Positions 20,197-34,652 of a stretch of DNA of 35,688 nt are shown here, one piece after another. The translations under genes and the position numbers were made by a program. Location of the stretch: NCBI GenBank assembly GCA_030656095.1, contig JAUSOU010000081.1, positions 1 to 35,688 of the forward strand, written 5' to 3'. The number at the start of each line of letters is the position of its first letter. Within the stretch, counting starts at the first letter, position 1. The notes beneath the pieces are model-generated. The model did no database searches. It was not told where the DNA came from and saw nothing but the letters and a program-made list of their open reading frames with translations. Source of the stretch: Thermovirgaceae bacterium (GTDB lineage: Bacteria; Synergistota; Synergistia; Synergistales; Thermovirgaceae).

Positions 20197-20282
20197 GCCG
20201 GAGTGGCGGAATGGTAGACGCAGCGGACTCAAAATCCGCCGGGCCCTAGCCTGTGGGAGTTCGAGTCTCCCCTTCGGCACCA
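20197..20282 (+). tRNA. tRNA-Leu (anticodon CAA)
   Basis: A complete 86-nt class II tRNA. The acceptor GCCGGAG pairs with CTTCGGC, the anticodon stem is GCGGA/TCCGC with loop CTCAAAA (anticodon CAA), it has a long variable arm and a T-arm with TTCGAGT, and the CCA end is encoded. A hairpin follows (20293-20326). It is the apparent integration target for the copper island to its right. Confidence 0.95.
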
Positions 20283-20430
20283 TAGAAAAGACTCAGGAGC
20301 TCTGATGCTAATGCATTAGAGCTCCTGATTTATGAGGAAACTACAGGATTTTTCGGGTTTTTATCAAAAAACTAACAAATCAGAACGGTAACCACAGGTT
20401 CCTTCCATGTACCGAGGTAGACGTGATCTC
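20283..20430 (+). other. post-tRNA module: hairpin plus tail shared with the two downstream tRNA remnants
   Basis: The stretch between the intact tRNA and the first 127-bp repeat starts TAGAAAAGACTCAGGAGCTCT, forms a strong dyad CAGGAGCTCT/AGAGCTCCTG, and later contains AAAAAACTAACAAATC and ACCACAGGTTCC. The same order of elements follows both tRNA remnants (from 20598 and 27615). It contains no gene and looks like what is left of an earlier element, or like an arm of the attachment site. Confidence 0.55.
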
Positions 20431-20597
20431 GAAAAATGCGGCAAACGGGGTATTTTTAGATGGGTTTTCTCCGTCTGAAGGTCACGGTTTCATTGCCAAT
20501 GCAGGGTTTTTCAGCGGCGACCCTTCTTAAACCCCGGTGTCCTCAAAATCCGCACCTACCTTGGTCTGTGGGAGGAGAGAGTCTCCCTTTCGGCACC
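20431..20597 (+). repeat. left attachment-like unit: 127-bp direct repeat plus tRNA-Leu 3' remnant
   Basis: Bases 20431-20557 match 27449-27575 at 125 of 127 positions, a fixed offset of 7,018. The repeat contains CTCAAAATCCGC (20542-20553), identical to the anticodon loop and 3' anticodon stem of the intact tRNA-Leu. A decayed variable arm, T-arm and acceptor end (CGGCACCG at 20590-20597, CCA mutated to CCG) follow. Tyrosine recombinases often use the anticodon loop as the crossover site, so this unit looks like an att site. Confidence 0.8.
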
Positions 20598-20809
20598 GTA
20601 GAAAAGACTCAAGAGCTCTGACGCTAATGCGTTAGAGTCTTTGTTTTATCCGGTAATAGTAAGGTTTTACGATATCGGAGAAAAACGTGACAAATCACTC
20701 CGGTAGACACAGGTTTCCCACATTCATTGAGGTTGTCTGACGTCTCCTGAGTGCGGTGATGTGGGCTTAATGCCGGCCTTCCGGCCTCACTTCATGAACT
20801 CTCAGAGGT

Positions 20810-22139
20810 TCAGCCGGATGTTCTTCTGAAGGCCCGTCGAAAATATATGTCGATCAGCCCATCCAGTTTCTTTTCGAGGAGCTTGTCGTCTGCCACACTA
20901 ATTTCCTCGTAGAGGGGATCGGCTATGCCGACAAAGGAGTCGACCAGCGCCGGATCGAAGTGACTTCCTCTGCCCTCCGTCAAAATCTGCATTGTCTCTT
21001 TCAGGGCAAGCGGTTCTTTATAGGGCCGCCGGGAGGTCAGGGCGTCAAAAACATCAGCCACGGCGAAGACCCTTGCATTGATCGGGATGTCATTCCCTTT
21101 GAGGCCGGTCACGAAACCAGTCCCGTCAAATTTTTTCGTGATGATACCGGACGACATCCGCGGCATCATCCAGCCAGCCGTAATGCCCAACGATATCGAC
21201 GCCATGGTTTACATGGGTCCTCATGACCTCACGTTCCTCATCTGTGAGTTTTCCAGGTTTTAGGAGGATACTGTCGCTGATCGCGATCTTTCCCACATCA
21301 TGGAGGAATGAACCCTTGATAAGCCCGGCAATGTTCTCCCGCTTCAGGCCGACCGCCTCTCCCAGTCTGACGGCATAGATCGTCACGCGGAAATTGTGGG
21401 TGTTCGTGTCGCTGTCCCGCTTGGCAATGGCGCCGCCCAGAACCTTCAGCATCCCTACGTTGGCATGGTAGAGATCTCCGGTCATTCTGATCAGCCCTTT
21501 GTTCAGAAACAGGACGATCGGGTAGATCGCCAGCGCCGTGAAGAAGATGGACATCACAACCTGCAGCAGGGAGAGAAGGATACGGTTTTTGATCTCCGCC
21601 ATTGTCCGGGGGGTAGCTTTATAAACTCCCTCTAAATACCCTGCGGTCTCCTGGCCGGTTGTCTTCAGGGGTATCTGGATCATGACGAAGATCTGGCCGT
21701 CCGTGCCGTAGAACCGCTGGAAATGAACGTCATCGATCAGGGCGATATCACGGCGATGCCTGCTGATTTTTTCTTCGATCAGCCGCGCGTCAGGATGGTC
21801 CGCCTCGGCGATCAGTTCCCGCTCCCGGTTATAGAGCTTGACGGCGATGAAATGCTTGTCTTCGATGTGCTTCCGCACTTCCTCCCGAAGGTGTTCAAGT
21901 TGCAGTTTATCAGGATTATTGAGGTATTTACTATGGCTTCTTTCGAAATCGCGGAACTCCTCCAGCGCAAGCGCGACAACATAGGCGTCGATCTTCCTCA
22001 CTTCGATAAAGAACACCACCGCGCCGATCAGGATAGAAAGAAGGACCCATGCCAGAAGCAACCTGACTATCAATTCCTGGTTGACATGTTGATTCATCTC
22101 GTTCCTGTCCGCGCCACTCGTCCCTGATCGGTGTGGCAC
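20810..22139 (-). pseudogene. membrane-anchored HD-GYP protein, frameshifted
   Basis: Two overlapping frames (22139-21126 and 21205-20810) together make one HD-GYP protein of about 440 residues. The first holds a helix (about 24-46), an extracytoplasmic sensor of about 140 residues, a second helix (about 186-212) and the start of the HD-GYP domain with FLHDVGKIAISD (His280/Asp281) up to YHHEKI, then stops. The second resumes at KFDGTGFVTGLKG and runs through ARVFAVADVFDALTSRRPYK to the end. The break is at a run of six A (21131-21136); five would restore the frame. The GYP motif is also changed to GFV. The start GTG 22139 has GGAGGC inside the end of the SHOCT gene; ATG 22097 is an alternative. 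It could also be a sequencing error or a slippage site. Confidence 0.8.
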
Positions 22140-22140
22140 C

Positions 22141-22356
22141 TTACGCCTCCAAATCCCTTTTCATGCTTTCAAGCTGTTCTTTCGTGATCTCTCCTGCGGC
22201 ATATCGCCGCTTAAGGATGCCAAGAGGGCTTTCCCCCGACAACTGGCCACGATCCTTGGATTCCGCGCCCCTGGTGAACTGCCAGATCCCTGCCGCAATT
22301 AAAACAATCGGAAGAATCATCCACATATACATTCCTCCGTATCCGAAATTCATCAT
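22141..22356 (-). CDS. small SHOCT-domain membrane protein
   Basis: A 71-residue protein: a Met/Gly/Tyr-rich N-terminus, one helix (about 12-28, WMILPIVLIAAGIWQF) and a C-terminal SHOCT domain (SPLGILKRRYAAGEITKEQLESMKRDLE). SHOCT proteins of this size often sit beside copper-efflux genes; their role is not known. It lies 193 bases downstream of the methyltransferase-like gene and directly before the HD-GYP gene (one base between stop and start). Confidence 0.85.
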   Translation of the reverse strand: MMNFGYGGMYMWMILPIVLIAAGIWQFTRGAESKDRGQLSGESPLGILKRRYAAGEITKEQLESMKRDLEA

Positions 22357-22549
22357 CGGACCCTATCCCTCCCCGAAGTCGCAATCGAAATGGCTGCACG
22401 CGGGAGCCGGCAGGGTCAATCAGGGCGCTGTTGTGGACAAAGCGATCTCTTCATCGATCATACTCCTGTCGTTGAGTCCGGAATCAGTTCCCTTTCTCCT
22501 TGCCATGCCATCCGGCACCTTTATCGGCACCTGAAAGGACGGTGATTGT

Positions 22550-23224
22550 TCACATCGTTTCCTTATGTCGCGGTTTGAGTATGTGTCTGCCGGCTCCAAA
22601 TCCAGGAATAAACGCCGGTGTTATTTGCGCATACTGGTCATAGAGATCACCAAACTCTTTTCTCACCATGGCCTCTTCCTGCCGGGCCAGCCGGATGTAG
22701 ATGACGGTCAACACCGGGAACATCGCCAGGGTGAGCAGCGTAGGCCACATCAGCAGGAACCCGGTCATGATGACAAGAAATCCCGTGTATTGCGGGTGGC
22801 GCACCCAGGCATAAGGCCCAGTTGTCGCCAGAGATTGTTTCTTTTGTGCGGCATGCAGTACCATCCATGCCAGGAAAACCAACAGCATTCCCGCCAGGAT
22901 CGAGATATTGGCGATAAGGTGGATCGGGTTATTGTGCGGGTCTCCTTTCAAGCCAAGGAGCGTGTACCATAGATGCCCGCTCCCATGGGCGAAGATGTCG
23001 GTGTGCGGAAACCTTGTCTGAAGCCACCCTGAAAGGAGGTAGATCGTCAGGGGGAACCCGTACATTTCGGCAAAGAGAGCCACGATAAAGGCGGAAAAAG
23101 CACCGAGGCTCTTCCAGTCCAGTTTCGTTTTCAGCCGGGTGAAGCTGGCCGCAAAGAGAATGAAGATCGCCGAATTTATGAACACAATGGTCCAAAGTCC
23201 GTATGCACTAGACGGAAGAGTCAT
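22550..23224 (-). CDS. isoprenylcysteine carboxyl methyltransferase-family (NnrU/PEMT-like) membrane protein
   Basis: A 224-residue protein with about five helices. The conserved C-terminal core ATTGPYAWVRHPQYTGFLVIMTGFLLMWPTLLT, followed by RLARQEEAMVRKEFGDLYDQYAQITPAFIP, is the ICMT/phospholipid-methyltransferase signature (SAM-binding RHPxY and the EE...E..Y..Y end). The substrate is unknown; members near metal-resistance genes are common. I chose ATG 23224, with GAGGAAA upstream, over the longer frame. It overlaps the preceding small gene by 17 bases. Confidence 0.85.
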   Translation of the reverse strand: MTLPSSAYGLWTIVFINSAIFILFAASFTRLKTKLDWKSLGAFSAFIVALFAEMYGFPLTIYLLSGWLQTRFPHTDIFAHGSGHLWYTLLGLKGDPHNNPIHLIANISILAGMLLVFLAWMVLHAAQKKQSLATTGPYAWVRHPQYTGFLVIMTGFLLMWPTLLTLAMFPVLTVIYIRLARQEEAMVRKEFGDLYDQYAQITPAFIPGFGAGRHILKPRHKETM

Positions 23225-23405
23225 CTGGATTTCCTCGATGGCTGTGGGTGCTGTCCTTCGGAACGCTGCCGGAAGATCTCTTCTCATCCCCGTGGCAGGA
23301 ATCGCTGCCGGAATGATGGCCTCCGCCGCAGCACCCGCCTCTTTTCATCATCATAAACAAGCATCCTACGACTAGCAGCAGCGACAACAGGTTTCCTGGA
23401 TTCAT
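23208..23405 (-). CDS. small Cys/His-rich membrane protein (putative metal binding)
   Basis: A 65-residue protein: one helix (NLLSLLLVVGCLFMMM, about 4-20), followed by KRGGCCGGGHHSGSDSCHGDE and a polar His-containing tail. The clustered Cys, His and Met residues suggest copper binding at the membrane; this is inference. I cannot name the family with confidence (DUF2933-like is possible). ATG 23405 has GGGAGGTG upstream. It is the first gene behind the second MerR-type promoter and overlaps the methyltransferase-like gene. Confidence 0.65.
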   Translation of the reverse strand: MNPGNLLSLLLVVGCLFMMMKRGGCCGGGHHSGSDSCHGDEKRSSGSVPKDSTHSHRGNPDDSSV

Positions 23406-23473
23406 TTTGTGCACCTCCCAGATAGATAGCCCGGTTACCTTGTTTCGGTAATGATCCACCGGGTGTGGGAAGA

Positions 23474-23506
23474 GCATAAAGCCTTGACTATGGTCAAGAG
23501 TCAAGG
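23474..23506 (-). promoter_or_regulatory. MerR-type promoter/operator 2 (small membrane protein operon)
   Basis: On the minus strand TTGACT and TTATGC are 19 bases apart, the over-long spacer that MerR activators need. The spacer region contains the perfect dyad CCTTGACT/AGTCAAGG (23482-23489 and 23499-23506). The sequence closely resembles the promoter in front of merR. Confidence 0.75.
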
Positions 23507-23550
23507 GGCAAATTCAAAAAACTTTACTCCTTGCTTTCAGAGGAGAATTC

Positions 23551-25911
23551 CTATTGATCTTTCTGTGACCTCAGTCGGAGTGCATTGGTTACGACCGAAA
23601 TGGAACTCGCACTCATTGCGGCGGCGGCGATGATCGGGCTGAGCAGGATCCCGAACACCGGGTAGAGCACGCCTGCTGCCAGAGGAACACCCAGGGCGTT
23701 GTAGACAAAGGCGAAGAAGAGGTTCTGCTTGATGTTGCGCATGGTCGCCCGCGAAAGCCTGCGTGCCCGCACGATACCCGTCAGGTCGCCCTTTACCAGG
23801 GTGACTCCCGCGCTTTCCATGGCTACGTCGGTACCGGTACCCATGGCGATGCCAACCTGCGACTGAGCCAGGGCCGGCGCGTCGTTGATGCCGTCACCCG
23901 CCATGGCGACAATGTGTCCCTCATTCTGGAAACGCTTGACCACAGATGCTTTTTCGTCGGGCAACACGTCGGACACCACTTCGTCGATCTCCAGTTTCCT
24001 GGCGACTGCTTCAGCCGTTGCGCGGTTGTCCCCCGTCAGCATGACGATGCGCATTCCCTCTTCATGGAGTTGCCTGATGGCCTCCGGGGTACTCGGCTTG
24101 ATGGGGTCCGATACAGCGAGAATTCCCGCGGCCTTGCCGTTGACAGCCACGAACATCACGGTCTGTGCTTCTGCTCTCAGTCTTTCCGCTTCGGCACCAA
24201 GCATGCCTGTATCGACCTTGAATTCTTCCATCAGTTTCAGATTTCCAAGGGTAACGGACTGCCCATTTACCTCGCCGGAGACGCCTTTCCCGGTATGAGA
24301 GGCAAAATTCCCGGCGTCAGCGAGGGTTGCTCCCTGCTCGATGGCTCCGGACACGATGGCGGCTGCAAGAGGATGTTCGCTTCCTTTCTCCAGGGTCGCC
24401 GCTATGGAGAGCATGTTTTTCTCGTCAAAGCCCGGGGCGGCGATCACGGTGGTGAGCCGGGGTTTGCCTAGTGTCAGGGTTCCAGTCTTGTCCACCACAA
24501 GAGTATCAACCTTCCGGAGGGTTTCAATCGCTTCCGCGTTCCTGAAAAGGACTCCCATTGTGGCTCCCTTGCCGGTCGAGACCATGATAGACAGAGGTGT
24601 CGCCAGTCCGAGGGCGCAAGGGCAGGCGATGATCAGAACCGAGACGGCTGCAATGAGGGCATAGGCCAACCTGGGTTCTGGACCAACTGCAAACCATATT
24701 CCGAAGGCTGCAAGGGCAATTGCCATGACAACAGGGACGAAATAACCCGAAACAGTGTCGGCGAGTTTCTGGATCGGAGCCCGGCTTCGCTGGGCCTCGG
24801 CAACCATGCTGACGATCTGGGAAAGAAGAGTCTCGCTTCCGACTCTTTCTGCCGCCATGATCAGGCTCCCCGTTGCGTTGATCGTCGCTCCAGTCACCTT
24901 GTCACCTGCCTGTTTGGATACGGGGATCGGTTCACCGGTGATCATGGATTCGTCTATCGAACTGGTTCCCTCCAGCACCACGCCGTCGGTGGGGACCTTC
25001 TCTCCTGGTCGGATCCGAAGTCGGTCCCCTTTTTTGACCTCGCCAAGGGGTATATCGATCTCGCTCCCGTCATCATTGAGTTTCCGGGCCGTCTTTGGTG
25101 CCAGCCCCAGCAGGGCTTTGATCGCCGTTCCTGTTTGACTTCGGGCGCGCAGTTCAAGAACCTGTCCCAGCAGGATCAGGGTGACAATGACGGCGGCCGC
25201 CTCAAAATAGACATGAACGGCTCCACCGGCTCCCTGCATTTCCTGCGGAAACAACTTCGGGAAAAGAACGCCTACGATGCTGTAGCCATAGGCGACGGAA
25301 ACACCCATGCTGATGAGCGTAAACATATTCAGGCTCATATTGACGATTGACTGTGCGCCCCTGACAAAAAATGGCCACCCTGCCCACAGCACTACCGGCG
25401 TGGCGAGAAGCAGTTCGACCCAGTTCAGTACTTGAGGAGAGGCCATCCCTTCTATCAGATGACCTCCCGGCAGCATTTCCCGCATGGCGATAAGGACCAG
25501 GGGAATGGTCAGGATAAGCCCGAACAGGAATCGCTTCCGCATGTCATCGTACTCGGGGTTTTGTTCTTCCTCCTCCAGTGATGCTGTCCGTGGTTCGAGA
25601 GCCATGCCGCACTTGGGGCAACTGCCTGGTTTATCCCGAATTACCTCCGGATGCATGGGGCATGTGTATTCCCTGCCGGGCTTCTTTTCCTGTTTCTCGT
25701 TGGAATTGTCCTTGCTTTTCGTATAGGCCTCCGGGTTCTGCCGGAACTTCTCGAGACAGTGAGGACTGCAGAAGTAGAAGGGTTTGTCCTTATATTCGAA
25801 TGTGGAGAAAGACGATTTGTCGTCAGTTGACATTCCGCAAACGGGATCCGTGACTTTTCCATCTCCCTCATGCTGGTGATGCTTGTGGTGCTCATGCACG
25901 GTGTTATCCAT
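23551..25911 (-). CDS. copA: copper-translocating P-type ATPase (P1B), YHS and heavy-metal-binding N-terminus
   Basis: A 786-residue P1B ATPase that exports Cu+ from the cytoplasm. The N-terminus lacks the usual HMA domain. It has a His-rich start, a YHS-type motif (DPVCGM to [12 protein letters not shown], about 22-62) and a heavy-metal-binding domain ([10 protein letters not shown]...[12 protein letters not shown], about 82-107). Eight helices surround the actuator (TGEP near 325), the CPC metal site (IACPCALG, about 430), the phosphorylation site DKTGT (Asp474), SEHPL, MLTGDN and [10 protein letters not shown]. The last helices have YNALG and [15 protein letters not shown], the Cu+ (P1B-1) signature. 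ATG 25911 with GGGAGGT upstream; it overlaps merR by eight bases. Confidence 0.95.
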
Positions 25912-26362
25912 GGTTTGTACCTCCCTTAACATGGTTGTGATGATGCAGGGGCTCTGTCTCATCAGAGAAAGATAGCGCCTCGATGATCGGGCATTCACTG
26001 ACCGGTCCGTGCCCGTCGCAGGCGGCGACGAGATGTTCAAGTGTTTCCAGTATCTGGGTCAGGTCCCTGATCTTCTGCCTTATACTCCTGGCTTTCTCTT
26101 CGGTTCGGAGTTTCACGTCGGACTTGGATGCCCGGGAATCGTGCTGCAGGGCCAGCAAGTCCTTTATCTCGCAGAGCGAGAATCCCAGTTCCTTTGCCCG
26201 TTTGATAAAACGGAGACGAGCGGCGTCGCCTTCTGGGTACATGCGATAATTCGAATCCGTTCTGGGAGGAGGAGCAATCAGGCCTCTCCCTTCATAGAAC
26301 CGGATGGTGTCAATGGAGACTTCGGCCATTCTGGCAAGCCTGCTGATGGTCAATCCCGTCAT
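25904..26362 (-). CDS. MerR-family heavy-metal-responsive regulator
   Basis: A 152-residue MerR regulator. The N-terminal winged helix ([26 protein letters not shown]) is followed by a dimerisation helix and a metal loop with [12 protein letters not shown] (Cys-x8-Cys), as in CueR/MerR-type sensors. The C-terminus is His-rich (LHHHNH). Copper is the likely inducer because copA follows and overlaps. I chose ATG 26362, where the canonical start [10 protein letters not shown] lies and a G-rich Shine-Dalgarno precedes it. It should bind the two 19-bp-spacer promoters at 26407-26439 and 23474-23506. Confidence 0.9.
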
Positions 26363-26406
26363 CGGGTGATTCCCCCCCGCTGTTTTATGCATATTCTCAT
26401 GATGGA

Positions 26407-26439
26407 TTGTAAACCTTTGGCCATAGTCAGGAGTCAAGG
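26407..26439 (-). promoter_or_regulatory. MerR-type promoter/operator 1 (merR-copA)
   Basis: On the minus strand TTGACT (26437-26432) and TTACAA (26412-26407) are separated by 19 bases. The interval has an imperfect dyad (AGTCAAGG and CCTTTGGC). It shares TTGACTC-TGAC-AT-G-CAAGG with promoter 2. Confidence 0.75.
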
Positions 26440-26732
26440 CCTGTGCGCTCTGATGTTAAAGGACAGGTTAGAATCATTGTACGTTTAAGCAGAAGGATAT
26501 ACAATTAGCAATGTACCAAGAAGAAAGACCAGAATGTATGAACATTAAGGAGTAAGATTCGGCCAGTTTTTTCTCGTGATGAGTGTCCATGTGCTCTGTA
26601 ATGAAGAGAGTGCGGGCGGCTCCATGCGGTTTGCGGCGAGTATCATCCTGAACCGCGCGGATATCGATACCGCTCTCCGGCAAAGGATGTCAAGGCATTA
26701 AAATTGCAAAAGAGGACAGAGGGAGATGCGAG
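26440..26732. other. intergenic region between merR and the DUF302 gene
   Basis: About 290 bases. I see no supported gene. A short plus-strand frame ending near 26700 (containing GGSMRFAASIILNR) and a 69-codon minus-strand frame have no recognisable family. The region probably holds the divergent promoter of the DUF302 gene. A decayed gene is possible. Confidence 0.35.
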
Positions 26733-27119
26733 ATGTTTGATTACACGGTAACCAGCAAGAAGAGCTTCGAACAGGCAGTAGCAGATCTGAAGAAAGCCTT
26801 GATCGGATTGAAGTTCGGTGTTTTGTGGGAGCTGGATATCGTAGCTAAAATGAAAGAAAAAGAGGTTGAGTATCAGGGAGGACAGTTCATCATCCTGGAG
26901 GTCTGCAATCCTCAGAGAGCAAAATCCGTTCTGGACATAGACATAAAGGCGGGATATTTCCTGCCCTGCAAAATTGTGGTTTATACAAAGGACGGGATTA
27001 CACATATTGGAACAGCCCGACCGTCGACGCTGATTGTCCTTATGGGCAATGCGACATTGAGCAAAATTGCAGAAGAAGTGGACAGGGATATCATTGCTGC
27101 CATAGATAGTGCAATATGA
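26733..27119 (+). CDS. DUF302 domain-containing protein
   Basis: A 128-residue soluble protein covering a whole DUF302 domain: KKSFEQAVADLKKALIGLKFGVLWELDI at the start, then ILEVCNPQRAKSVLDIDIKAGYFLPCKIVVY with the family CNP motif, and a final helix (IAEEVDRDIIAAIDSAI). DUF302 proteins bind haem or metal in a few cases, but their general role is unknown. AGGGAGA lies eight bases before the ATG. It is the only plus-strand gene in the island and the last one before the right repeat. Confidence 0.88.
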   Translation: MFDYTVTSKKSFEQAVADLKKALIGLKFGVLWELDIVAKMKEKEVEYQGGQFIILEVCNPQRAKSVLDIDIKAGYFLPCKIVVYTKDGITHIGTARPSTLIVLMGNATLSKIAEEVDRDIIAAIDSAI

Positions 27120-27448
27120 CACCGTCTTTTTTTATGCGATTTACAGGTTGCAGAGCTTCGTTTCCAGCACTTCCAAAGCGTCATGAGGTCATTTTTGAGT
27201 GGTGTGTCATTCCCCTGGAGGGCAGAAGGTCCTTGCAGAGGATCTGGGCCATGTTGTAGAAAAGCCGATAGAGAGCCGCATGCAACTTATTGAGCGTTCC
27301 GGCAAATTCAAACGGAAGGTTTGTGCTTGATCTGAGCTCGTAAATACCAAAGAGGGTATTTATCCCCCCGGTAGGCGGTCTGATTGCAGAAATATACCGG
27401 AGCTGTTCTGTCAAAGAAAATATTCAGGTCTGTCAGATCCGTCAAACT
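27120..27448. other. intergenic region at the right end of the island
   Basis: About 330 bases between the DUF302 gene and the right 127-bp repeat. A 77-codon minus-strand frame (27414-27181) has no recognisable family; it could be a gene remnant. A GC-rich inverted stretch lies around 27350-27380. No integrase, tRNA or terminator that I can defend. Confidence 0.35.
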
Positions 27449-27614
27449 GAAAAATGCGGCAAACGGGGTATTTTTAGATGGGTTTTCTCCGTCTGAAGGT
27501 CATGGTTTCATTGCCAATGCAGGGTTTTTCAGCGGCGACCGTTCTTAAACCCCGGTGTCCTCAAAATCCGCACCTGGAGACCTTGTGGGGGTTCAAATCC
27601 CCCCTCCGGCACCA
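27449..27614 (+). repeat. right attachment-like unit: 127-bp direct repeat plus tRNA-Leu 3' remnant
   Basis: Bases 27449-27575 repeat 20431-20557 with two mismatches. CTCAAAATCCGC (27560-27571) is followed by a well-kept T-arm (GGGGGTTCAAATCCCCC) and acceptor end CTCCGGC plus ACCA (to 27614). This is the better preserved of the two tRNA remnants and is probably the displaced original 3' end of the tRNA gene. The D-arm and 5' half are missing, so it is not a tRNA gene. Confidence 0.8.
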
Positions 27615-27627
27615 TATTAGTAACACA

Positions 27628-27738: not shown

Positions 27739-28014
27739 CTACCCGCATTGCCTGTTTGAATTTTTGGTCTTCATGATCTGGGCGGCATCGACGACGGACA
27801 GGGCCCAGACGGCTACGCCCCCGCTGATTTGACCAATGAAGCCTGCCTGCGGCGGAGCGAAGCGGAAAGTCATGAAACCAAGAATCACCATCCAGAACAA
27901 CATCACAAGCCCCCGGTTTGGCCTTCCCAGGAAGACATGTGCCGAACCGGGAACAACAAGGGCCGAGAGCAGTATCAGCCACGGAGGCGAGATTTCTGTG
28001 CGAGTCCCTTCCAC
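27739..28014 (-). CDS. small membrane protein, last gene of the AcnX/APC operon
   Basis: A 91-residue protein with three helices (about 12-30, 35-52, 57-76) and the motif VPGSAHVFLGRPNRGLVMLFWM before the second helix, which recalls TM2-like or small permease-associated proteins. No function known. The start is GTG at 28014, with AAGGGGG eight bases upstream. It follows the APC permease by ten bases. Its stop lies immediately beside the tail of the right attachment unit. Confidence 0.7.
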   Translation of the reverse strand: MEGTRTEISPPWLILLSALVVPGSAHVFLGRPNRGLVMLFWMVILGFMTFRFAPPQAGFIGQISGGVAVWALSVVDAAQIMKTKNSNRQCG

Positions 28015-28024
28015 GTTTTCCCCC

Positions 28025-29395
28025 TTAGTATCCCACGGGGCGCGGCCACTTCAACGCCCCCTCTGAGATGAGCTTCTTGCGGTCCACGAACCGGTAGCGG
28101 TGAAGGGCAAACCACAGGGAGGCCAGGGTATAGAAAAGGAAACCCGCGACCATGTTCAGCCAGTAGCCGAAGTACATCCCTACAAGCGTGGCCAGGGTCA
28201 GGGCCAAGAGTAGGATCGATGTCCAGGGATGCCACGGCGACAGGTAGCCCCGCTCGATGCTCCCCAGGGGGTACATCCGACGAAACTTGAACATCATGAC
28301 CGCCGTGAACACGTACACGAGAAGCGCCGAGAGGATCGAGAAGGTGATGACCTGGTCCAGCAGCCCCGTGAAGCCGAAGGCCAGGGCGATGGGAAGGAGG
28401 AAAAGGATGGCCCGGTATGGCGTCCGGTACTTGGGGTGCACCGCGGCAAAATACTCGGGGATCAGGGTGTCCCTGGCCATGGCGAACCATGCCCGGGAGG
28501 AATCGGTGATGCAGCCGTTTGCGCTGGCCATGCACGAGAGAATCGTGCCGATGAAAAGCAGGATGATGACCACGGGCATCCGCGTGGCCATGGCCGCGTC
28601 AAAGAGGGGAAAAACCGAGGATCCCAATTCCTTCGAGTGAACGAGCCCCGAGCATACGAACCAGGTGATAGTGGCTCCGATGAGGAGCGTCACCATCCCA
28701 GTGAGGGCCCCCACCGGGAGGGAACGCCCCGTGGAGCGGCATTCTTCCGCCGCCAGGACCGTCCCCTCGATGCCCAGGAAGAACCACACGCCGAATTGGA
28801 ACGCCCCCAGGATGCCGATCCATCCGTAGGGGAGGCCGTTGGAGAACTCCGCCAGCCGGAGAAGTGATTGATGGGGGATGAAGAACTTTGTCGAGAAGAG
28901 TAGAATGAAGATCGTCAGGTAGGCGATGGCGGTGATGATGAAGTTGAATGTCAGGGTGGCGTAAACTCCCCGGTAGTTTAGCCAGGTCAGCCCTACGAGT
29001 GTGAGGATGATGAAGGGTAGGCTGTTGATATGGGGACTCACGGTCTTCAGAATTTCGCCCACCACCAGGGCGTCGGCCGCCTCCAGCATGACGTACTCGA
29101 AGACGAGCATGAGGCCCACGTTGAAGGCCGCCAGCGGGCCCATGAAATACTTTGCCATGGCGTACTGTCCGCCGGCCTCCGGGATGACGGAGCCCATCTC
29201 CGTGTTCACCATGACGAGGGATGTGTAGAGCAACCCCATCACCCAGCAGGCGATGATAGCTCCCAGGGTCCCCCCCTTGGCCACGGTGAAGTTCCAACCC
29301 ATGAATTCCCCCACCAGGACTATCCCCACGCCCAAAGCCCAGATGTGGACGGGGCCCAGAACCTTCGACAGGTGGTTTGTCTTCTCCTCGGGCAT
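28025..29395 (-). CDS. APC-superfamily amino acid permease
   Basis: A 456-residue permease with about 12 helices. The first half has ALGVGIVLVGEFMGWNFTVAKGG (helix 1, with the broken-helix region used for substrate binding), TEMGSVIPEAGGQYAMAKYFMGPLAAF, and MLEAADALVVGE. It resembles the ethanolamine/amino-acid permease branch of the family. It probably imports the amino acid handled by the upstream AcnX enzymes. GGGAGG lies eight bases before the ATG, within the end of the preceding 39-residue gene. It is surrounded by four small membrane genes in the same operon. Confidence 0.9.
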   Translation of the reverse strand: MPEEKTNHLSKVLGPVHIWALGVGIVLVGEFMGWNFTVAKGGTLGAIIACWVMGLLYTSLVMVNTEMGSVIPEAGGQYAMAKYFMGPLAAFNVGLMLVFEYVMLEAADALVVGEILKTVSPHINSLPFIILTLVGLTWLNYRGVYATLTFNFIITAIAYLTIFILLFSTKFFIPHQSLLRLAEFSNGLPYGWIGILGAFQFGVWFFLGIEGTVLAAEECRSTGRSLPVGALTGMVTLLIGATITWFVCSGLVHSKELGSSVFPLFDAAMATRMPVVIILLFIGTILSCMASANGCITDSSRAWFAMARDTLIPEYFAAVHPKYRTPYRAILFLLPIALAFGFTGLLDQVITFSILSALLVYVFTAVMMFKFRRMYPLGSIERGYLSPWHPWTSILLLALTLATLVGMYFGYWLNMVAGFLFYTLASLWFALHRYRFVDRKKLISEGALKWPRPVGY

Positions 29396-29398
29396 GAT

Positions 29399-29518
29399 CT
29401 ATTCCTCCCGCTTTGAGGTGAGCTGTCGTTCCACCCGGATGAAATCGAAGGCCATGAGACCCAAAAGGAGGGCGGAAAGAGCCCAGGCCAGGCCGTTCAG
29501 AATCTGCCACCAGTTCAT
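29399..29518 (-). CDS. 39-residue single-span membrane protein, easily missed
   Basis: Starts with ATGA overlapping the stop of the 108-residue membrane gene and ends three bases before the APC permease. The protein begins MNWWQILNGLAWALSALLLG, has one helix (about 8-26) and a charged cytoplasmic tail (RVERQLTSKREE). It carries the Shine-Dalgarno of the permease in its last codons. Tight coupling on both sides argues that it is a real subunit or chaperone of the permease. No family recognised. Confidence 0.7.
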   Translation of the reverse strand: MNWWQILNGLAWALSALLLGLMAFDFIRVERQLTSKREE

Positions 29519-29841
29519 CGGGGGTTCCCCGCCGGAGCGGGTTCCAGGGAGGTTCCTGCTCCAGGCTCCGCTTTTTCAGCTTCGTAAAGCCCCTCGACGA
29601 TCTCGCCCAGTTCCCGGTTGGACTGAGGAATGACGATAGCCAGGTAGGTGCCCAGGCTCAGGAAGGTCAGGAGGAAGGTCCCTGCCGAAAAAGTGTAGGT
29701 CATCCCCCCCCCGCTCCCCGACCCAACAAGAACCTTGCCCCTCATCAGCATTGTCGTGAGAAGCGTCGTGAAGCACAGGATCATGATGAAAAGGACGTCG
29801 AAAACTTCCATGAATCGGTTCTTTCCCATATTCCCCGCCAT
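29515..29841 (-). CDS. small membrane protein of the AcnX/APC operon, 108 residues
   Basis: Two helices (about 13-33 and 50-70) with a glycine/serine-rich loop between them (GSGSGGGMTYTFSAG), then a cytoplasmic acidic and proline-rich tail. AAAGGAAG lies about ten bases before the ATG. It overlaps the 39-residue gene by four bases (ATGA) and follows the 97-residue gene by 21 bases. Function unknown; by context it is part of the transport system. Confidence 0.75.
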   Translation of the reverse strand: MAGNMGKNRFMEVFDVLFIMILCFTTLLTTMLMRGKVLVGSGSGGGMTYTFSAGTFLLTFLSLGTYLAIVIPQSNRELGEIVEGLYEAEKAEPGAGTSLEPAPAGNPR

Positions 29842-29862
29842 CGTGTCGTCTTCCTTTCTGTG

Positions 29863-30156
29863 TCAAAGGCCTGCGTTGTTGCAGTCTTCCAGGTAGAGGT
29901 CTTCCCTGCGCTTCCGGAGGTGAATTACGACAGCCACAAGAGCACCGCTGGAAAAAATGCCGACAAGAAGGGCTGTGGCGGTGGCGACCGCCCGGGTCGC
30001 TCGATCCGGGGCTATCCCGTGGACCTGGAAGAGGACAAAGAGAAGAACGACCCACATCGCTGCGAAGAATATTCCGACCAGGGCCATGTCCGACCGGTAC
30101 ATCCGGTTCATTGTGGCGGCTCTCCTGGATTCTGCCGAAAGTGCTGGCTGGTTCAT
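29863..30156 (-). CDS. small membrane protein of the AcnX/APC operon, 97 residues
   Basis: A protein with two helices (about 24-45 and 57-80) and a basic cytoplasmic end (HLRKRREDLYLED). The ATG is one base after the stop of the aconitase-X small subunit; AAGGAG lies nine bases upstream, inside that gene. I recognise no family. The tight spacing ties enzymes and transporter into one unit. Confidence 0.75.
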   Translation of the reverse strand: MNQPALSAESRRAATMNRMYRSDMALVGIFFAAMWVVLLFVLFQVHGIAPDRATRAVATATALLVGIFSSGALVAVVIHLRKRREDLYLEDCNNAGL

Positions 30157-30157
30157 T

Positions 30158-30595
30158 TTAGAAAACTCCTTGCCCGGAACCGGAAACCTTGCAGATGGTT
30201 ACAATTCCGCTTGTTCCGTCAACCGTGACCTGGTCCCCGTTTTCAATGACCTTGAAGGGATCATTCTCAAGGTCGACGACCGTGGGCACGCCGCATACGA
30301 CGGCAGCCACACCAGTCCTGGAGTCGATTTTCGGCAGGACCAGGGCGCAGGGTGATATGCCCCTGAGCCTGGCAGCGTGGAAATGGCTGGACCAGCCGTT
30401 GGATCCCTTGCCCCCCGAGAGGACGAGGACGACGCCGCAAATGGTCTGTCCCTCCGCGGGATGTCCCTTTTCAATAACCATTCCAGTGGCCTCGTCGATA
30501 CCACTCCACCCTTGTATCGTCTCCCGACAGACCATGGCGGGTCCGGAGGCGATGCCGGAAATGACTCCTCTGCCGCGGATTATAATTGGATCCAT
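30158..30595 (-). CDS. aconitase X swivel domain, small subunit (DUF126)
   Basis: A 145-residue AcnX small subunit: IIIRGRGVISGIASGPAMVCRETIQGWSGID at the start, GVVLVLSGGKGSNGWSSHFHAARLRG in the middle, then a swivelling-domain fold to the end. Two-subunit AcnX enzymes are dehydratases; the characterised ones act on cis-3-hydroxy-L-proline or on mevalonate 5-phosphate. I chose ATG 30595, the usual family start, with AAGGTGG just upstream; ATG 30613 is possible. It overlaps the large-subunit gene by 16 bases. Confidence 0.9.
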   Translation of the reverse strand: MDPIIIRGRGVISGIASGPAMVCRETIQGWSGIDEATGMVIEKGHPAEGQTICGVVLVLSGGKGSNGWSSHFHAARLRGISPCALVLPKIDSRTGVAAVVCGVPTVVDLENDPFKVIENGDQVTVDGTSGIVTICKVSGSGQGVF

Positions 30596-31866
30596 GTTGA
30601 CCACCTTCCCCATGTTCCAGAGATGGAAGCTTGCAGGCACTCTTCCCAGTTTCCGAAGAAAACCTTGGTTTTTGTCAAGGGTTTGATGTAATGGGCCTGT
30701 TTGGCAGAATCGAAAGCCATGGCCCGGGTGCCGGCCGGCCATTTTTCGCTCACCAGCGGACAACTGCCCACCATCAAGACTCCACCCGCATCCTCAATGG
30801 TTTTCGTGTACCCGCATCGGTCTGCAACGGCCTTGATCGGAAGCGCTGTCCAGACATGAAGAGTAACTCCTGCCTTCACCTTGCACCCATTCAGGAAACC
30901 GGCAACCGCGCTTATCTGGTCAATGGAGTAATGAGGGCATCCCAGGCTGACGTAATCCACTTCCCCGGCCTCCTGGTCGCAAAGGATCTCGCGGGCTTCG
31001 TTCAGCTGGCGAGGCCCGATCTCAATCTGATCTTTTAGCCCTGAAGGGGAAAGGCATGCCTGAAGCGAAGAAGCTTCTGGTGTGGCCCCGATTATGTGAC
31101 AAAGCTCTGGACCGGATGTGGTAGCCAGCGACGCAAAGCAGGATTTCAGGCGGAGCATGTCCGCCCTTTCAACGTTTCCGGTTAGAATTGGAATGGAGTG
31201 GGGAGGGAGCTTAAGGCCAATGGAATAACCCAAAAGGTCCCATTCTTCAACGGTTTCTGGCTTGCATGTAACATCAAAAAGGTGAGTTCCCTTGCGACTT
31301 TCCGGGAGATGCATTCCCCAAAGTGGAGTTCTGGTGCAAACCGCCGAACAGAAGGCGGCCTCTATGCCGTCTGCATTGGCACAGGCACCCCACAGCGAGT
31401 TCATCATGAGGACCGCGTGGGATTCGGTTGTTACGTAATGTTCTCCGAACAAGGGGATAAATCCGGTCATGTAGGGGACACAGCTTCCCACCAGGTGAAC
31501 CCCGGCCTTCAGGCACCGATCGAGGTACCGTTCGTTTTTTCGGAATTCATCCCCGCGGCAGCCCATTTTAGACCAGTTCAGGTGATCGACAGGAGAGCAG
31601 TCGGACTGGGAAAAGCACCCCACGGCGTCGAAGGGGATCTTCTCCGATGAGCAGAACCACATCTCGGACATAATCTCATCCATGTCCTTCGACCGGACCG
31701 CCTCAAGGTAGTGATGAGCTCCGCAGAAGAGATGGGCTTTAGAGACCTTGCAAAGTCTTTCAGCACCTAGAACGTTTGCGTACTTGACAATAAAATCCAA
31801 TGTCTTCTGTTTAAGAGGACCGGACTCTCCGCCCAGGACCCGCTTTTCCTCTTCGCTAAAGTACAT
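30580..31866 (-). CDS. aconitase X catalytic subunit (DUF521), probable cis-3-hydroxy-L-proline dehydratase
   Basis: A 428-residue large subunit of aconitase X. Family motifs: GSCVPYMTGFIPLFGEHYVTTESHAV near residues 127-152 (relatives usually have SESSAV), NSLWGACANADGIEAAFCSAV, GCPHYSIDQI, and SCPLVSEKW followed by DSAKQAHYI. Several cysteines can hold the Fe-S cluster. It lies next to an ornithine-cyclodeaminase-like reductase, the pair known from cis-3-hydroxy-L-proline breakdown: dehydration to pyrroline-2-carboxylate, then reduction to proline. The substrate is therefore inferred from context. AAGGAG lies nine bases before the ATG. A strong hairpin precedes the gene. Confidence 0.9.
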   Translation of the reverse strand: MYFSEEEKRVLGGESGPLKQKTLDFIVKYANVLGAERLCKVSKAHLFCGAHHYLEAVRSKDMDEIMSEMWFCSSEKIPFDAVGCFSQSDCSPVDHLNWSKMGCRGDEFRKNERYLDRCLKAGVHLVGSCVPYMTGFIPLFGEHYVTTESHAVLMMNSLWGACANADGIEAAFCSAVCTRTPLWGMHLPESRKGTHLFDVTCKPETVEEWDLLGYSIGLKLPPHSIPILTGNVERADMLRLKSCFASLATTSGPELCHIIGATPEASSLQACLSPSGLKDQIEIGPRQLNEAREILCDQEAGEVDYVSLGCPHYSIDQISAVAGFLNGCKVKAGVTLHVWTALPIKAVADRCGYTKTIEDAGGVLMVGSCPLVSEKWPAGTRAMAFDSAKQAHYIKPLTKTKVFFGNWEECLQASISGTWGRWSTWIQL

Positions 31867-31892
31867 GAGCAGCTCTCCTTTTTCTGAAAGAT

Positions 31893-31925
31893 AAGGCCCG
31901 GGAAACGTTGAATTTCCCGGGCCTT
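31893..31925 (-). promoter_or_regulatory. intercistronic hairpin between the reductase and aconitase X
   Basis: A perfect 13-bp stem, AAGGCCCGGGAAA with TTTCCCGGGCCTT, encloses a seven-base loop. It lies in the 74-base gap before the AcnX gene. No good T-run follows on either strand, so it is more likely a processing or stabilising element, or a weak attenuator, than a full terminator. Confidence 0.65.
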
Positions 31926-31940
31926 GTTTAAAAAGAGGGG

Positions 31941-32930
31941 TTAAAGTTTTACCCAGGTCCCAATCTTCTTCTCCAAGGCTTTTTTATAGATCATCCGGCC
32001 AGTCATTATGTCATGGCTGGCGATTCCCATGAGTACTGCGCCGCGGCGGCCTTGCAGGATAGCTGGTTTGACCCCGGCACAGATTTCTCCCATGTCGGCG
32101 TAAATCTCTTCCTTCTTCGGGTAACCTCCGTGGAAGTAGACGCCCAAGCCCTGAGTCAAGAGATACTGGTTCCAGTCGTCGCAGACGAAGCAGTTGCGAT
32201 TGTTCATGATGTCGGCGTCAAAGCTGGAATCATAGTCCACCGCTATGGCCAGCACGTCCTTCTTGAGCCAGGAAGAGCGGACGAAGCGCTCCGGTTTCTC
32301 TAGGATGGGGGCGCAGGTGGCTATGACATCGGCGTCTTTTACGGTCTCTTGGACATTTTTGCCGACGACAAACTCAACACCAGGAAGATTTGGTGTGAGT
32401 TCTTCGACAAACTTCTTGACCTGGTTGGGGAAAATATCGAAAATCTTTACGGTCTTCATTTTGGGAAGTACTTCTTTGAAAGCGAGCAGATTGGTTCGTC
32501 CCTGGACTCCCAGTCCGATAATGGAAACGACTTCGCTTTTGGGATCAGCCAGGTACTTTGCGCAAACTCCTGAAGCGGCACCGGTACGCCAGGCGGTCAT
32601 CCAGTTTGCATCCATGACTGCCTTTATGATGCCGGTGTCCGGATCATTCATGCACCACACCCCATTGATATAGGGGAGCCCCTTAGCCTGGTTGCTGGGA
32701 TAGCCAGCAGCCCATTTAATGCCGCAACAGTCAACGTCGCCACCGACCCAACAGGGCATGGCGTGGATGAAGCAATCTTTGCGGGGGTGGACGCCGATCT
32801 TTGCAGGTAATTCGACCTTCTTTTCACCCTTCAGGCGGAACCCTTCATCAATTGCGTCAACAATCTCCTTCATTCTGATGCCCAGTGATACGACCTCTTC
32901 CTGAGAAATCCACAGCACATCGTAAGCCAT
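31941..32930 (-). CDS. ornithine cyclodeaminase / mu-crystallin family, probable pyrroline-2-carboxylate reductase
   Basis: A 329-residue NAD(P)-dependent enzyme of the OCD/mu-crystallin family: KIGVHPRKDCFIHAMPCWVGG and CGIKWAAGYPSN in the substrate domain, DANWMTAWRTGAASGVCAKYLA, then the Rossmann motif IIGLGVQGRTN. Relatives reduce cyclic imines (LhpI) or act as amino-acid dehydrogenases. Next to aconitase X a delta-1-pyrroline-2-carboxylate reductase is the best guess. ATG 32930 has AAAGGAGG upstream; the longer frame to 32975 overlaps the preceding gene. The spacing to the upstream lyase gene is 16 bases. Confidence 0.85.
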   Translation of the reverse strand: MAYDVLWISQEEVVSLGIRMKEIVDAIDEGFRLKGEKKVELPAKIGVHPRKDCFIHAMPCWVGGDVDCCGIKWAAGYPSNQAKGLPYINGVWCMNDPDTGIIKAVMDANWMTAWRTGAASGVCAKYLADPKSEVVSIIGLGVQGRTNLLAFKEVLPKMKTVKIFDIFPNQVKKFVEELTPNLPGVEFVVGKNVQETVKDADVIATCAPILEKPERFVRSSWLKKDVLAIAVDYDSSFDADIMNNRNCFVCDDWNQYLLTQGLGVYFHGGYPKKEEIYADMGEICAGVKPAILQGRRGAVLMGIASHDIMTGRMIYKKALEKKIGTWVKL

Positions 32931-32946
32931 TGCTGTTGCCTCCTTT

Positions 32947-34242
32947 TTAGCTTTGTCCTGCAAGAAGGACATCAAGTACCGCCTGGTCCACGTTTTTCAT
33001 GCCCCGGTCGGTGATGATCGCAAGGTTGTCCATTGTTTCCTGGAATGTGTCTCCGACGATTCCGTTGCCTTTAGGAACTGTTGCTCCAGCTTGCGCAAGA
33101 TAGGCCGTTTCTATTGCAATTGCCACCGAAGTGGCAATTTTCAGGGCACAGCCGTACTTTGCTCCATCGCATAGCATTCCCGTGAGGTTGGCCGTCATCA
33201 ACTGAACCGCGCTTTCAACCTGCCCGCAGGTTCCCCCCAGCATGTAGGTCACCGCGGCCGCAGCTCCAGTGCCTGCCGCAACGGCGCATCCGCAGTGTGG
33301 AGTGAGGATCCCCGTCCGGGTCTTGATGACTCCCACGACAAGAAGTCCCAAGGCAAGAGCTTGAGCGATCTCTTCATCGTTTTTGCCCAGGTGGCGTCCC
33401 ATTTCCCCGACCGTGATGAAGTAAGTAATCCCGTGGTTGCCGCTGCCGAAGCAGCCGAAAACGGGAACCTTGATCCCGCCCATCCGGGCATCAGCTGCTG
33501 CAGCGGCTAAAATTCGTATCCGGTTAATGATTGAATCTGGAAGAGCCCCTTCCTCCAGGAGAGATTGAAGATATTTTCCCAGCTCTAGACCAGCGTGTTC
33601 GGCCAAACCGGCTTGCGCGGCATGAAGGTTCTGCGTCACGCCCTTAAGAAGGAACAAGAGCTCCGCAGGCTTTAATGCCTCGATAGTATCAACGATCTCA
33701 CTGATTGAAATATCATGGAGATCCTGCAGGCTGTCCCTTCCGGAAAGAGTGGCTTCATCACAGGCTGTTTCGGCCCGAAATGTTGAGTGCCCGTTGACTT
33801 TCTTTTCCAGGAGTCGGTCATGGGCCCCCTCTATCAAAGCTTCGTATACTCCCTTTTCGGTTACGACAGTAGCTGTAATACGTATCCCCGTGGCTTCTTC
33901 GTCGAGTTCGAACCGCACCTCGTGGTCTTTCAGGAAGGCTTTCGCCTGCTCGACATCGCCAGGTTCAATGTCCTTGAAGAGCTCAAGTCCCGCCTCGGGG
34001 CGTCCCTTTATAATGGCAAGCGCAACGGCCAGGTCGACACCGGAACTACGGGTTCCGGGGATCCCCACGGAAACGGCATCCTTGTAGATGTTCCTGTCAA
34101 GGCGTACTCGTACCTTCCGGATCTTCCCCTCTGCGCCTTGGCAGGCGTGCGCCACGGCAAGGCCAATTGCCACCGGATCCGTGCACCCGATGGTCAGGAA
34201 AGTGTGCTGATGGAGGACGTTAAGTGCCGTATGCTGTTCCAA
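32947..34242 (-). CDS. UPF0597 / CyuA-like Fe-S cysteine desulfidase or serine-dehydratase-alpha-type lyase
   Basis: A 431-residue protein of the UPF0597 family. GCTDP with Cys20 is the invariant N-terminal motif, and Cys317/Cys319 (TPHCGCAVAAGTG), Cys358 (MLCDGAKYGC) and Cys365 supply the [4Fe-4S] cluster of the serine-dehydratase-alpha fold. Characterised relatives (CyuA) break down L-cysteine to pyruvate, ammonia and sulfide through an enamine. RidA upstream would remove such enamine or imine products. Twenty bases separate it from ridA. The real substrate in this operon may be another beta-substituted amino acid. Confidence 0.88.
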   Translation of the reverse strand: MEQHTALNVLHQHTFLTIGCTDPVAIGLAVAHACQGAEGKIRKVRVRLDRNIYKDAVSVGIPGTRSSGVDLAVALAIIKGRPEAGLELFKDIEPGDVEQAKAFLKDHEVRFELDEEATGIRITATVVTEKGVYEALIEGAHDRLLEKKVNGHSTFRAETACDEATLSGRDSLQDLHDISISEIVDTIEALKPAELLFLLKGVTQNLHAAQAGLAEHAGLELGKYLQSLLEEGALPDSIINRIRILAAAAADARMGGIKVPVFGCFGSGNHGITYFITVGEMGRHLGKNDEEIAQALALGLLVVGVIKTRTGILTPHCGCAVAAGTGAAAAVTYMLGGTCGQVESAVQLMTANLTGMLCDGAKYGCALKIATSVAIAIETAYLAQAGATVPKGNGIVGDTFQETMDNLAIITDRGMKNVDQAVLDVLLAGQS

Positions 34243-34262
34243 GCGAAACTCGCCAGCCCTTT

Positions 34263-34652
34263 TCAGGCCTTCTCGGTAGTGGCTATTACGTCGATCTCTA
34301 CCTTTGCATCGAGTGCCATCCCCCCGACTTCAACAAAGCAGCGTGCTGGGAAGTACCCGTCGAAGAAGGATTTATAAACCTCGTTGATAACCTTGAAATC
34401 CTTGATATCGGCAGCATAGATGACGGCCTTGACGATGTTGTTCACGGTCATGCCCTGGCTTGCCAAAACTCCCTGGATGTTTTTCATCACCTGGGTTGTT
34501 TCTGCCCCCGGATCCCCGCTTCCGACCATTTTCCCAGTCCTGGGGTCGATGGCGATCTGTCCGCTCAGGAAAAGGAAGGGGCCTGCATAAACTCCCTGAC
34601 TGTATGCTCCTACGGCTGCAGGAGCCTTGTCTGTTGAAACAACTCGGTTCAT
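34263..34652 (-). CDS. ridA: RidA family imine/enamine deaminase
   Basis: A 129-residue RidA protein: APAAVGAYSQGVYAGPFLFLSGQIAIDPRTG, NIQGVLASQGMTVNNIVKAVIYAAD, and FPARCFVEVGGMALDAKVEIDVIA with the conserved arginine that holds the imine carboxylate. RidA hydrolyses reactive 2-aminoacrylate and similar imines. ATG 34652 is the start: AAGGAG is nine bases before it but touches the ATG at 34661. It is the first gene of the operon. The IS5-like element begins about 22 bases upstream. Confidence 0.93.
   Translation of the reverse strand: MNRVVSTDKAPAAVGAYSQGVYAGPFLFLSGQIAIDPRTGKMVGSGDPGAETTQVMKNIQGVLASQGMTVNNIVKAVIYAADIKDFKVINEVYKSFFDGYFPARCFVEVGGMALDAKVEIDVIATTEKA

Follow-up and report, generated by a model that had tools for sequence, protein, structure and literature searches.

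The window analyzed here is one whole contig of 35,688 bp (JAUSOU010000081.1) from a 1.92 Mb Synergistota bin assigned to the Thermovirgaceae (GCA_030656095.1; 169 contigs, 89% complete), and on its minus strand, from 34661 to 27739, it carries a ten-gene operon built around aconitase X (AcnX). In the direction of transcription the genes encode a RidA-family deaminase, a UPF0597/SDH_alpha lyase, an OCD-type reductase, the large and small subunits of AcnX, three small membrane proteins (sm1, sm2 and sm3), an APC permease and a fourth small membrane protein, sm4 (Table 1). The nine junctions measure, in that order, 20, 16, 74, -16, 1, 21, -4, 3 and 10 bp, eight of them being overlaps or gaps of at most 21 bp, and the sole junction above 25 bp lies between the OCD gene and the AcnX large-subunit gene. 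An alternative TTG start of the OCD gene at 32975 would overlap the UPF0597 gene. An earlier inspection of the letters without database searches, here called the sequence-only reading, had described ten same-strand genes with mostly overlaps or gaps under 25 bases, and both this layout and the families that it named agree with our results and Pfam scores; its span of 27739-34652 began at the right base, and its end missed the RidA start codon that we chose by 9 bp. Promoter and terminator scans returned 4 promoter-like sites where 4.5 were expected and 14 terminator-like sites where 10.3 were expected.

Table 1. Genes of the AcnX operon and the adjacent transposase gene. Coordinates are those of the window; G and L numbers here and in the text denote genomes and loci; transmembrane (TM) helices were predicted by a simple hydropathy scan.
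Product	Coordinates	Strand	Family evidence
RidA-family enamine/imine deaminase, 132 aa	34263..34661	-	PF01042 (Ribonuc_L-PSP) 129 bits; TIGR00004 144 bits, cut-off 106
UPF0597/SDH_alpha Fe-S beta-eliminating lyase, 431 aa, GCTDP motif	32947..34242	-	PF03313 (SDH_alpha) 177 bits; MmCyuA 9fsl 2e-26
OCD/mu-crystallin-family imine (ketimine) reductase, 329 aa	31941..32930	-	PF02423 (OCD_Mu_crystall) 177 bits
AcnX large subunit, type II architecture, 428 aa	30580..31866	-	PF04412 334 bits (cut-off 31.5)
AcnX small subunit, swivel domain, 145 aa	30158..30595	-	PF01989 76 bits (cut-off 27)
sm1, membrane protein, 97 aa, two predicted TM helices	29863..30156	-	No family passes its cut-off; related proteins at other module loci
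sm2, membrane protein, 108 aa, two predicted TM helices	29515..29841	-	No family; kept in Synergistota and Firmicutes modules
sm3, 39 aa, single predicted TM helix	29399..29518	-	pN/pS 0.29-0.38 against G007/G009; homologues in L152, L153, L165, L166, L154
APC-superfamily permease, 456 aa, eleven predicted TM helices	28025..29395	-	PF00324 (AA_permease) 118 bits, gathering score 24.6; TIGR00908 213 bits, cut-off 382
sm4, membrane protein, 91 aa, two predicted TM helices	27739..28014	-	PF20382 (DUF6677) 18.6 bits, below cut-off
Insertion sequence (IS)-type DDE transposase, divergent from and upstream of the operon, running off the contig end	34902..35688	+	PF01609 (DDE_Tnp_1) 87 bits; PF05598 (DUF772) 82 bits

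We found all ten genes in identical order in two other Synergistota genomes, G007 (L031) and G009 (L032), the encoded proteins being 67-96% identical. Every gene, including the 39-codon sm3, is under purifying selection, with ratios of non-synonymous to synonymous polymorphism (pN/pS) of 0.06-0.38 against these two genomes (0.18 for sm1 against G007). Because the order is the same and the ratios are low for each gene, the arrangement is not a chance one, and the ten genes form a real operon. The sequence-only reading had not recognized the combination, and we found no paper on an operon that combines these families. A rearranged version is present in G122 (L035), listed as an Acetomicrobium hydrogeniformans bin, where OCD, a TRAP transporter, UPF0597, RidA, AcnX, an Fe-S serine dehydratase, sm1-3, the APC permease and sm4 are found. 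On the upstream side, three TRAP genes run directly into RidA in L031, and an RpiR regulator precedes RidA in L032 with TRAP genes farther upstream; the IS transposase occupies this place in the window, where the transcription unit appears to have been cut. A search of the window's own genome for the missing TRAP genes gave a best permease of just 47% identity in another context (alanine racemase and pyridoxal phosphate (PLP) enzymes), and thus the import system seems to have been lost, moved or left unassembled. The TRAP solute-binding protein was considered as a clue to the substrate, and its best solved match, an isethionate binder at only 87 bits, is not decisive.

Both AcnX subunits pass the curated Pfam cut-offs, and the predicted fold of the large subunit is closest to the solved AcnX structures 7cnr, 7cnp and 7d2r, with template-modeling scores of 0.75-0.78 by query length (0.76 for 7cnp). 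In alignment with AtAcnX and TkAcnX the catalytic residues are kept, namely Ser65 of the small subunit, which is the general base, and Glu148, Ser149, Lys389 and Tyr393, and the large subunit has the type II cluster cysteines Cys129, Cys310 and Cys369. In AtAcnX the substrate cis-3-hydroxy-L-proline (C3LHyp) is held by Thr72, Asp203, Ile206 and Trp35 (PMC8184944). The same alignment places Gly67 at Thr72, Phe47 at Asp203 and, probably, His51 or Ala50 at Ile206, with Trp35 kept as Trp30, and two or three of the four holding residues are therefore lost in the window protein. The Asp203 equivalence is one of sequence alignment only and falls in a poorly modeled loop, the AlphaFold model of the large subunit having a confidence (pLDDT) of 71 and the substrate loop (residues 46-57) being too weakly modeled to fix residue equivalence. 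None of the tabulated AcnX copies that have a small subunit carries Thr at position 72. The phosphate-binding Asn79 of the type IIb large subunit is not matched, since the window residue aligned through AtAcnX Asn233 is Asp89. In a tree of 54 proteins, the window AcnX belongs to a monophyletic branch of 34 (support 100/100), separate from the C3LHyp enzymes, the mevalonate-5-phosphate dehydratases and the Burkholderiales proteins, and none of the 34 is a characterized enzyme. The landmark residues are missing from AcnX subclasses IIc-IIf, for which no function has been assigned (PMC8184944), and the window's branch fits this description.

The UPF0597 lyase retains the three cluster cysteines and Cys23 of MmCyuA (in HCGC, CDGAKYGC and GCT motifs), and the GCTDP, HCGC and CDGAK.GC motifs are found in all eight operon homologues. 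In the window protein and in all eight homologues, however, Asp22 of GCTDP replaces the catalytic Glu25 of MmCyuA. The E25D variant of MmCyuA is inactive, although Asp does occur at that site in a few genomes (PMC12647591), and it is thus unlikely that the lyase is a standard L-cysteine desulfidase. RidA scores above its family cut-off; the OCD protein reaches no NCBIfam equivalog cut-off, its best score being 167 bits where the archaeal alanine dehydrogenase model requires 409. Its closest solved relatives are 6t3e, labelled as a pyrroline-2-carboxylate reductase, and archaeal alanine dehydrogenase.

The sequence-only reading had assigned AcnX and the OCD-type reductase to the C3LHyp route, and this is not supported: Thr72, Asp203 and probably Ile206 are replaced, and the OCD protein scores 51 bits against the LhpI pyrroline-2-carboxylate reductase model, whose cut-off is 400. 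Hydroxyproline catabolism might still take another form, in which AcnX would dehydrate a 3-hydroxyproline isomer (cis-3-hydroxy-D-proline from the trans-3-hydroxyproline of collagen, or hydroxyproline betaine) and the OCD enzyme would reduce pyrroline-2-carboxylate to proline. The logic of AcnX plus a reductase is already known (PMC5144071), the retained tryptophan is the one that packs on the proline ring, and the label of 6t3e points the same way; in addition, a proline-racemase-family gene in L068, from a Clostridiales bin, scores 374 bits against trans-3-hydroxyproline dehydratase (cut-off 550). Nevertheless, the two residues that hold the ring nitrogen are the ones replaced by Gly67 and Phe47, the proline-racemase gene is found in just one of the 34 loci of the AcnX branch, and such a route has no need for RidA, SDH_alpha enzymes or an amine transporter. 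We consider it unlikely.

We then compared the genes within 8 kb of AcnX at the 34 loci of the branch (AcnX score above 290 bits) with those at 34 more distant AcnX loci. The branch loci include TRAP genes (16), MttB (12), RidA (10), RpiR (10), SDH_alpha enzymes (10, with UPF0597 in 8), OCD (9), Asp/Glu racemase-like genes (8), opine dehydrogenase-like genes (6), the APC/sm transporter (5), Fe-S serine dehydratase (4) and BCCT transporters (3). MttB, RidA, OCD, SDH_alpha enzymes, the racemase and the opine dehydrogenase are absent from all 34 distant loci, at which TRAP genes are common too. Amine-related genes of any kind are present at 18 of the 34 branch loci and at none of the distant ones (Fisher 3e-7); across the comparisons for RidA, OCD, SDH_alpha, MttB and amine genes, the Fisher p values, which ignore relatedness, range from 0.002 to 3e-7. 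When the three loci of Candidatus (Ca.) Formimonas are left out, 16 of 31 loci are still amine-linked. The genome of Ca. Formimonas warabiya (G189, 6.4 Mb) has 73 MttB-family matches, some of which contain an in-frame TAG. In G037 pduL begins less than 80 bp after the gene of the AcnX small subunit, with eutA, eutB, eutC and eutL behind it, and in L185 and L186 AcnX is accompanied by MttB, a corrinoid protein and a BCCT betaine transporter. Other settings were also seen: two different AcnX pairs lie side by side near a HAL-like gene in an apparent histidine-utilization cluster of a Lachnospiraceae bin (L073), and AcnX pairs lie near 5-oxoprolinase (pxpA-type) genes in L037 (G122) and L049 (G137), with an MmgE/PrpD-family gene in L037.

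The neighborhoods also admit a scheme for breaking down opine-type compounds or secondary-amine dicarboxylates, in which TRAP would import an N-carboxyalkyl beta-hydroxy amino acid, the opine dehydrogenase and racemase would cleave or invert it, leaving the beta-hydroxy half to be processed by AcnX, OCD and RidA. Octopine_DH and Asp/Glu-racemase genes stand beside AcnX in L031, L038, L041 and L070, the dehydrogenase is closest, among solved proteins, to N-(1-D-carboxylethyl)-L-norvaline dehydrogenase, and TRAP genes occur at 16 of the 34 loci. The racemase had no match among solved structures. This scheme has a small chance of being right, given that neither gene is present in the window, L032, L033 or L035 within the stretch examined, and that TRAP genes are common at the distant AcnX loci too.

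The APC permease and its small companions recur in loci of other kinds. Copies of the permease in other loci are 58-96% identical to that of the window, and sm4 copies adjoining a permease in other genomes are 43-75% identical; sm2 has the conserved motif FDxLFxMxLCFxTLLTTMLMxGxV, and a PHROGs search with the small proteins found nothing. Among 188 Synergistota genomes, five have a close homologue of the permease, four of them in AcnX operons, and the fifth lies about 7 kb from grdC/grdD, where no sm genes were detected. The Firmicutes modules consist of the permease, sm1 and sm2, mostly with sm3 and often with sm4. In L167 (G325) and L168 (G290) the module is flanked on either side by an mtmC-mtmB pair; the two pairs are nearly identical, codon 203 of both mtmB genes is an in-frame TAG, and pyl genes follow. 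In Ca. Formimonas warabiya one module lies directly 3' of sarcosine-reductase genes (L152) and another follows a eutQ-type microcompartment operon (L153); the sarcosine-reductase cluster of Ca. Formimonas was induced, and far more abundant, on glycine betaine (PMC9768040). Two MttB genes adjoin the module in L166, and in L068 it comes behind AcnX and a serine dehydratase, the contig ending after sm3. No amine-type or AcnX partner was recognized at L154, L169 and L171, where the module is also present.

The permease and sm1-sm4 thus form a module of their own, separate from AcnX, and this suggests that its cargo is a small amine and not the amino acid of the pathway. The common theme of its loci is a small primary amine, be it methylamine as the substrate (mtm genes) or the product (sarcosine reductase), or ethanolamine, and this gene neighborhood suggests that the module transports amines. 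The monomethylamine permease of methanogens, MtmP, may be another close counterpart of the window permease. We regard the module, with its four small membrane proteins, as the most distinctive new part of the operon, and our literature searches found no paper describing it. Within the operon the permease gene has a higher GC content at third codon positions than its neighbors (0.85 against 0.59-0.75) and a lower synonymous divergence (dS) to G007 (0.55), hinting at a separate history or strong codon selection. An additional gene, for a protein of 219-223 aa, lies between those for the permease and sm4 in L167, L168, L160 and L170. G009 and G189, both of which have the module, come from the DFE enrichment (PMC9768040).

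The module also bears on two further explanations. Fermentation of serine- or cysteine-type amino acids would have UPF0597 (with the Fe-S serine dehydratase in relatives) and RidA produce pyruvate, AcnX and OCD being side branches and the permease an ordinary amino-acid importer. SDH_alpha enzymes are indeed at 10 of the 34 loci, CyuA chemistry is well known (PMC12647591), and the host carries grdD, a sign of amino-acid fermentation; but the natural Glu-to-Asp change corresponds to the inactive CyuA variant and the permease module is found in methylamine, sarcosine and ethanolamine loci, so we think this explanation improbable. An ethanolamine-linked pathway, in which AcnX, OCD and RidA would free ethanolamine from an N-hydroxyethyl amino acid for the permease to handle, agrees with the eut operon behind AcnX in G037, the ethanolamine permease model nearest to the permease and the microcompartment of L153, but is very improbable because EutB has no match in the window genome, which is 89% complete, and because 12 branch loci have MttB where only one has Eut neighbors.

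Based on these results, we tentatively propose, at less than an even chance, that the operon degrades a beta-hydroxylated or beta-substituted alpha-amino acid, probably N-alkylated, through enamine/imine chemistry, and that the small-amine transporter moves the released amine; the host is a strict anaerobe in this proposal. AcnX, with Ser65 as the base and its cluster on Cys129, Cys310 and Cys369, would remove water from the beta-hydroxy acid to give an enamine/imine, and the UPF0597 Fe-S lyase, with Asp22 as the base, would act on a related amino acid that lacks the alkyl group and eliminate its beta-substituent. Hydrolysis of the enamine/imine by RidA would yield a 2-oxo acid together with an amine or ammonia; alternatively, the OCD-type reductase could use NAD(P)H to reduce the imine, a reaction that would serve as an electron sink. 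The permease and sm1-sm4 would act as a five-part small-amine transporter, most simply outward, with the substrate taken up in relatives by the TRAP transporter. Export is favored since the window genome has grdD and no match to MttB or EutB, with the reservation that the bin is incomplete. Our best guess for the N-alkyl group is methyl, as N-methylation of the substrate would be the simplest link between AcnX chemistry, the company of MttB and a methylamine-type transporter; the observations behind the proposal are the gene content, the conserved order, the retained catalytic residues, the lost hydroxyproline-binding residues and the company that the module keeps elsewhere, and the substrate, the direction of transport and every reaction are inferred. 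The AcnX, imine-reductase and RidA chemistry of the sequence-only reading is supported, and its suggestion of a new pathway for hydroxy- or beta-substituted amino acids stands, now with a likely amine product, while the four small proteins that it had included in that pathway belong with the permease to the AcnX-independent module.

Several points weigh against this proposal. MttB has no match in G000, G007, G009 and G122, the genomes with the transporter-bearing operon, and the N-methyl link therefore rests on the transporter and on other members of the branch. SDH_alpha-type enzymes usually use free-amine serine or cysteine, for which N-alkyl chemistry is not needed, and the opine dehydrogenase and Asp/Glu racemase partners fall outside the scheme. 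The AcnX substrate loop is modeled with low confidence, the co-occurrence counts were obtained with queries drawn from the branch itself, and related genomes are not independent of one another.

A wider proposal, possible yet doubtful, is that a separate AcnX subclass dehydrates N-methylated or N-alkyl beta-hydroxy amino acids, with RidA and OCD leading on to methylamine, and that the APC permease with four small subunits is a general small-amine transporter of methylamine (pyrrolysine), sarcosine-reductase, ethanolamine and AcnX loci. A monophyletic AcnX branch gains in this way a narrow, assayable class of candidate substrates. If confirmed, the five-part module would represent an APC transporter made of several subunits, very small ones among them. 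It may also serve as a marker of small-amine metabolism in anaerobes. Both the branch and the module bear on the origin of methylamine and related amines, the food of methanogens, from nitrogen compounds in sediments and digesters.

Elsewhere in the window, a 127-bp direct repeat (20431-20557 and 27449-27575; 98% identical, 7,018 bp apart) adjoins a tRNA-Leu(CAA) gene at 20197-20282, and positions ~27550-27614 resemble the 3' half of the same tRNA. Between the repeats are genes for a heavy-metal P-type ATPase with YHS/HMBD domains, a MerR regulator and DUF302, PEMT-family and HD-domain proteins. The region 20197-27615 is probably an integrated metal-resistance island that ends just before the operon.

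In comparison with known systems, the window AcnX shares with AtAcnX, the C3LHyp enzyme, its fold, the catalytic Ser, Glu, Lys and Tyr, two of three cluster cysteines and an OCD-family reductase as partner, but it consists of two subunits, has the type II cysteine set (Cys310, not Cys510) and belongs to another tree branch and another neighborhood. It resembles TkAcnX (7CNR), a type IIb mevalonate-5-phosphate dehydratase, in its separate small and large subunits and type II cysteine set, and differs in being bacterial, in having Asp89 for the phosphate ligand Asn79 and in that no mevalonate-pathway neighbors were seen. The UPF0597 lyase has the cluster cysteines and Cys23 in common with MmCyuA (9FSL), and is set apart, with its eight operon homologues, by Asp in place of Glu25. 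Hydroxyectoine breakdown by EutB and EutC, a lead only, likewise couples a dehydratase for a beta-hydroxy amino acid to a reductase of the OCD family; the dehydratase there is a PLP enzyme, and no ectoine hydrolase genes were noticed at the window operon. The ethanolamine permeases of the APC superfamily (TIGR00908) provide the best model for the window permease and have neighbors of the same kind (eut and mtm genes), whereas the window permease scores below their cut-off and has sm1-sm4 as dedicated neighbors.

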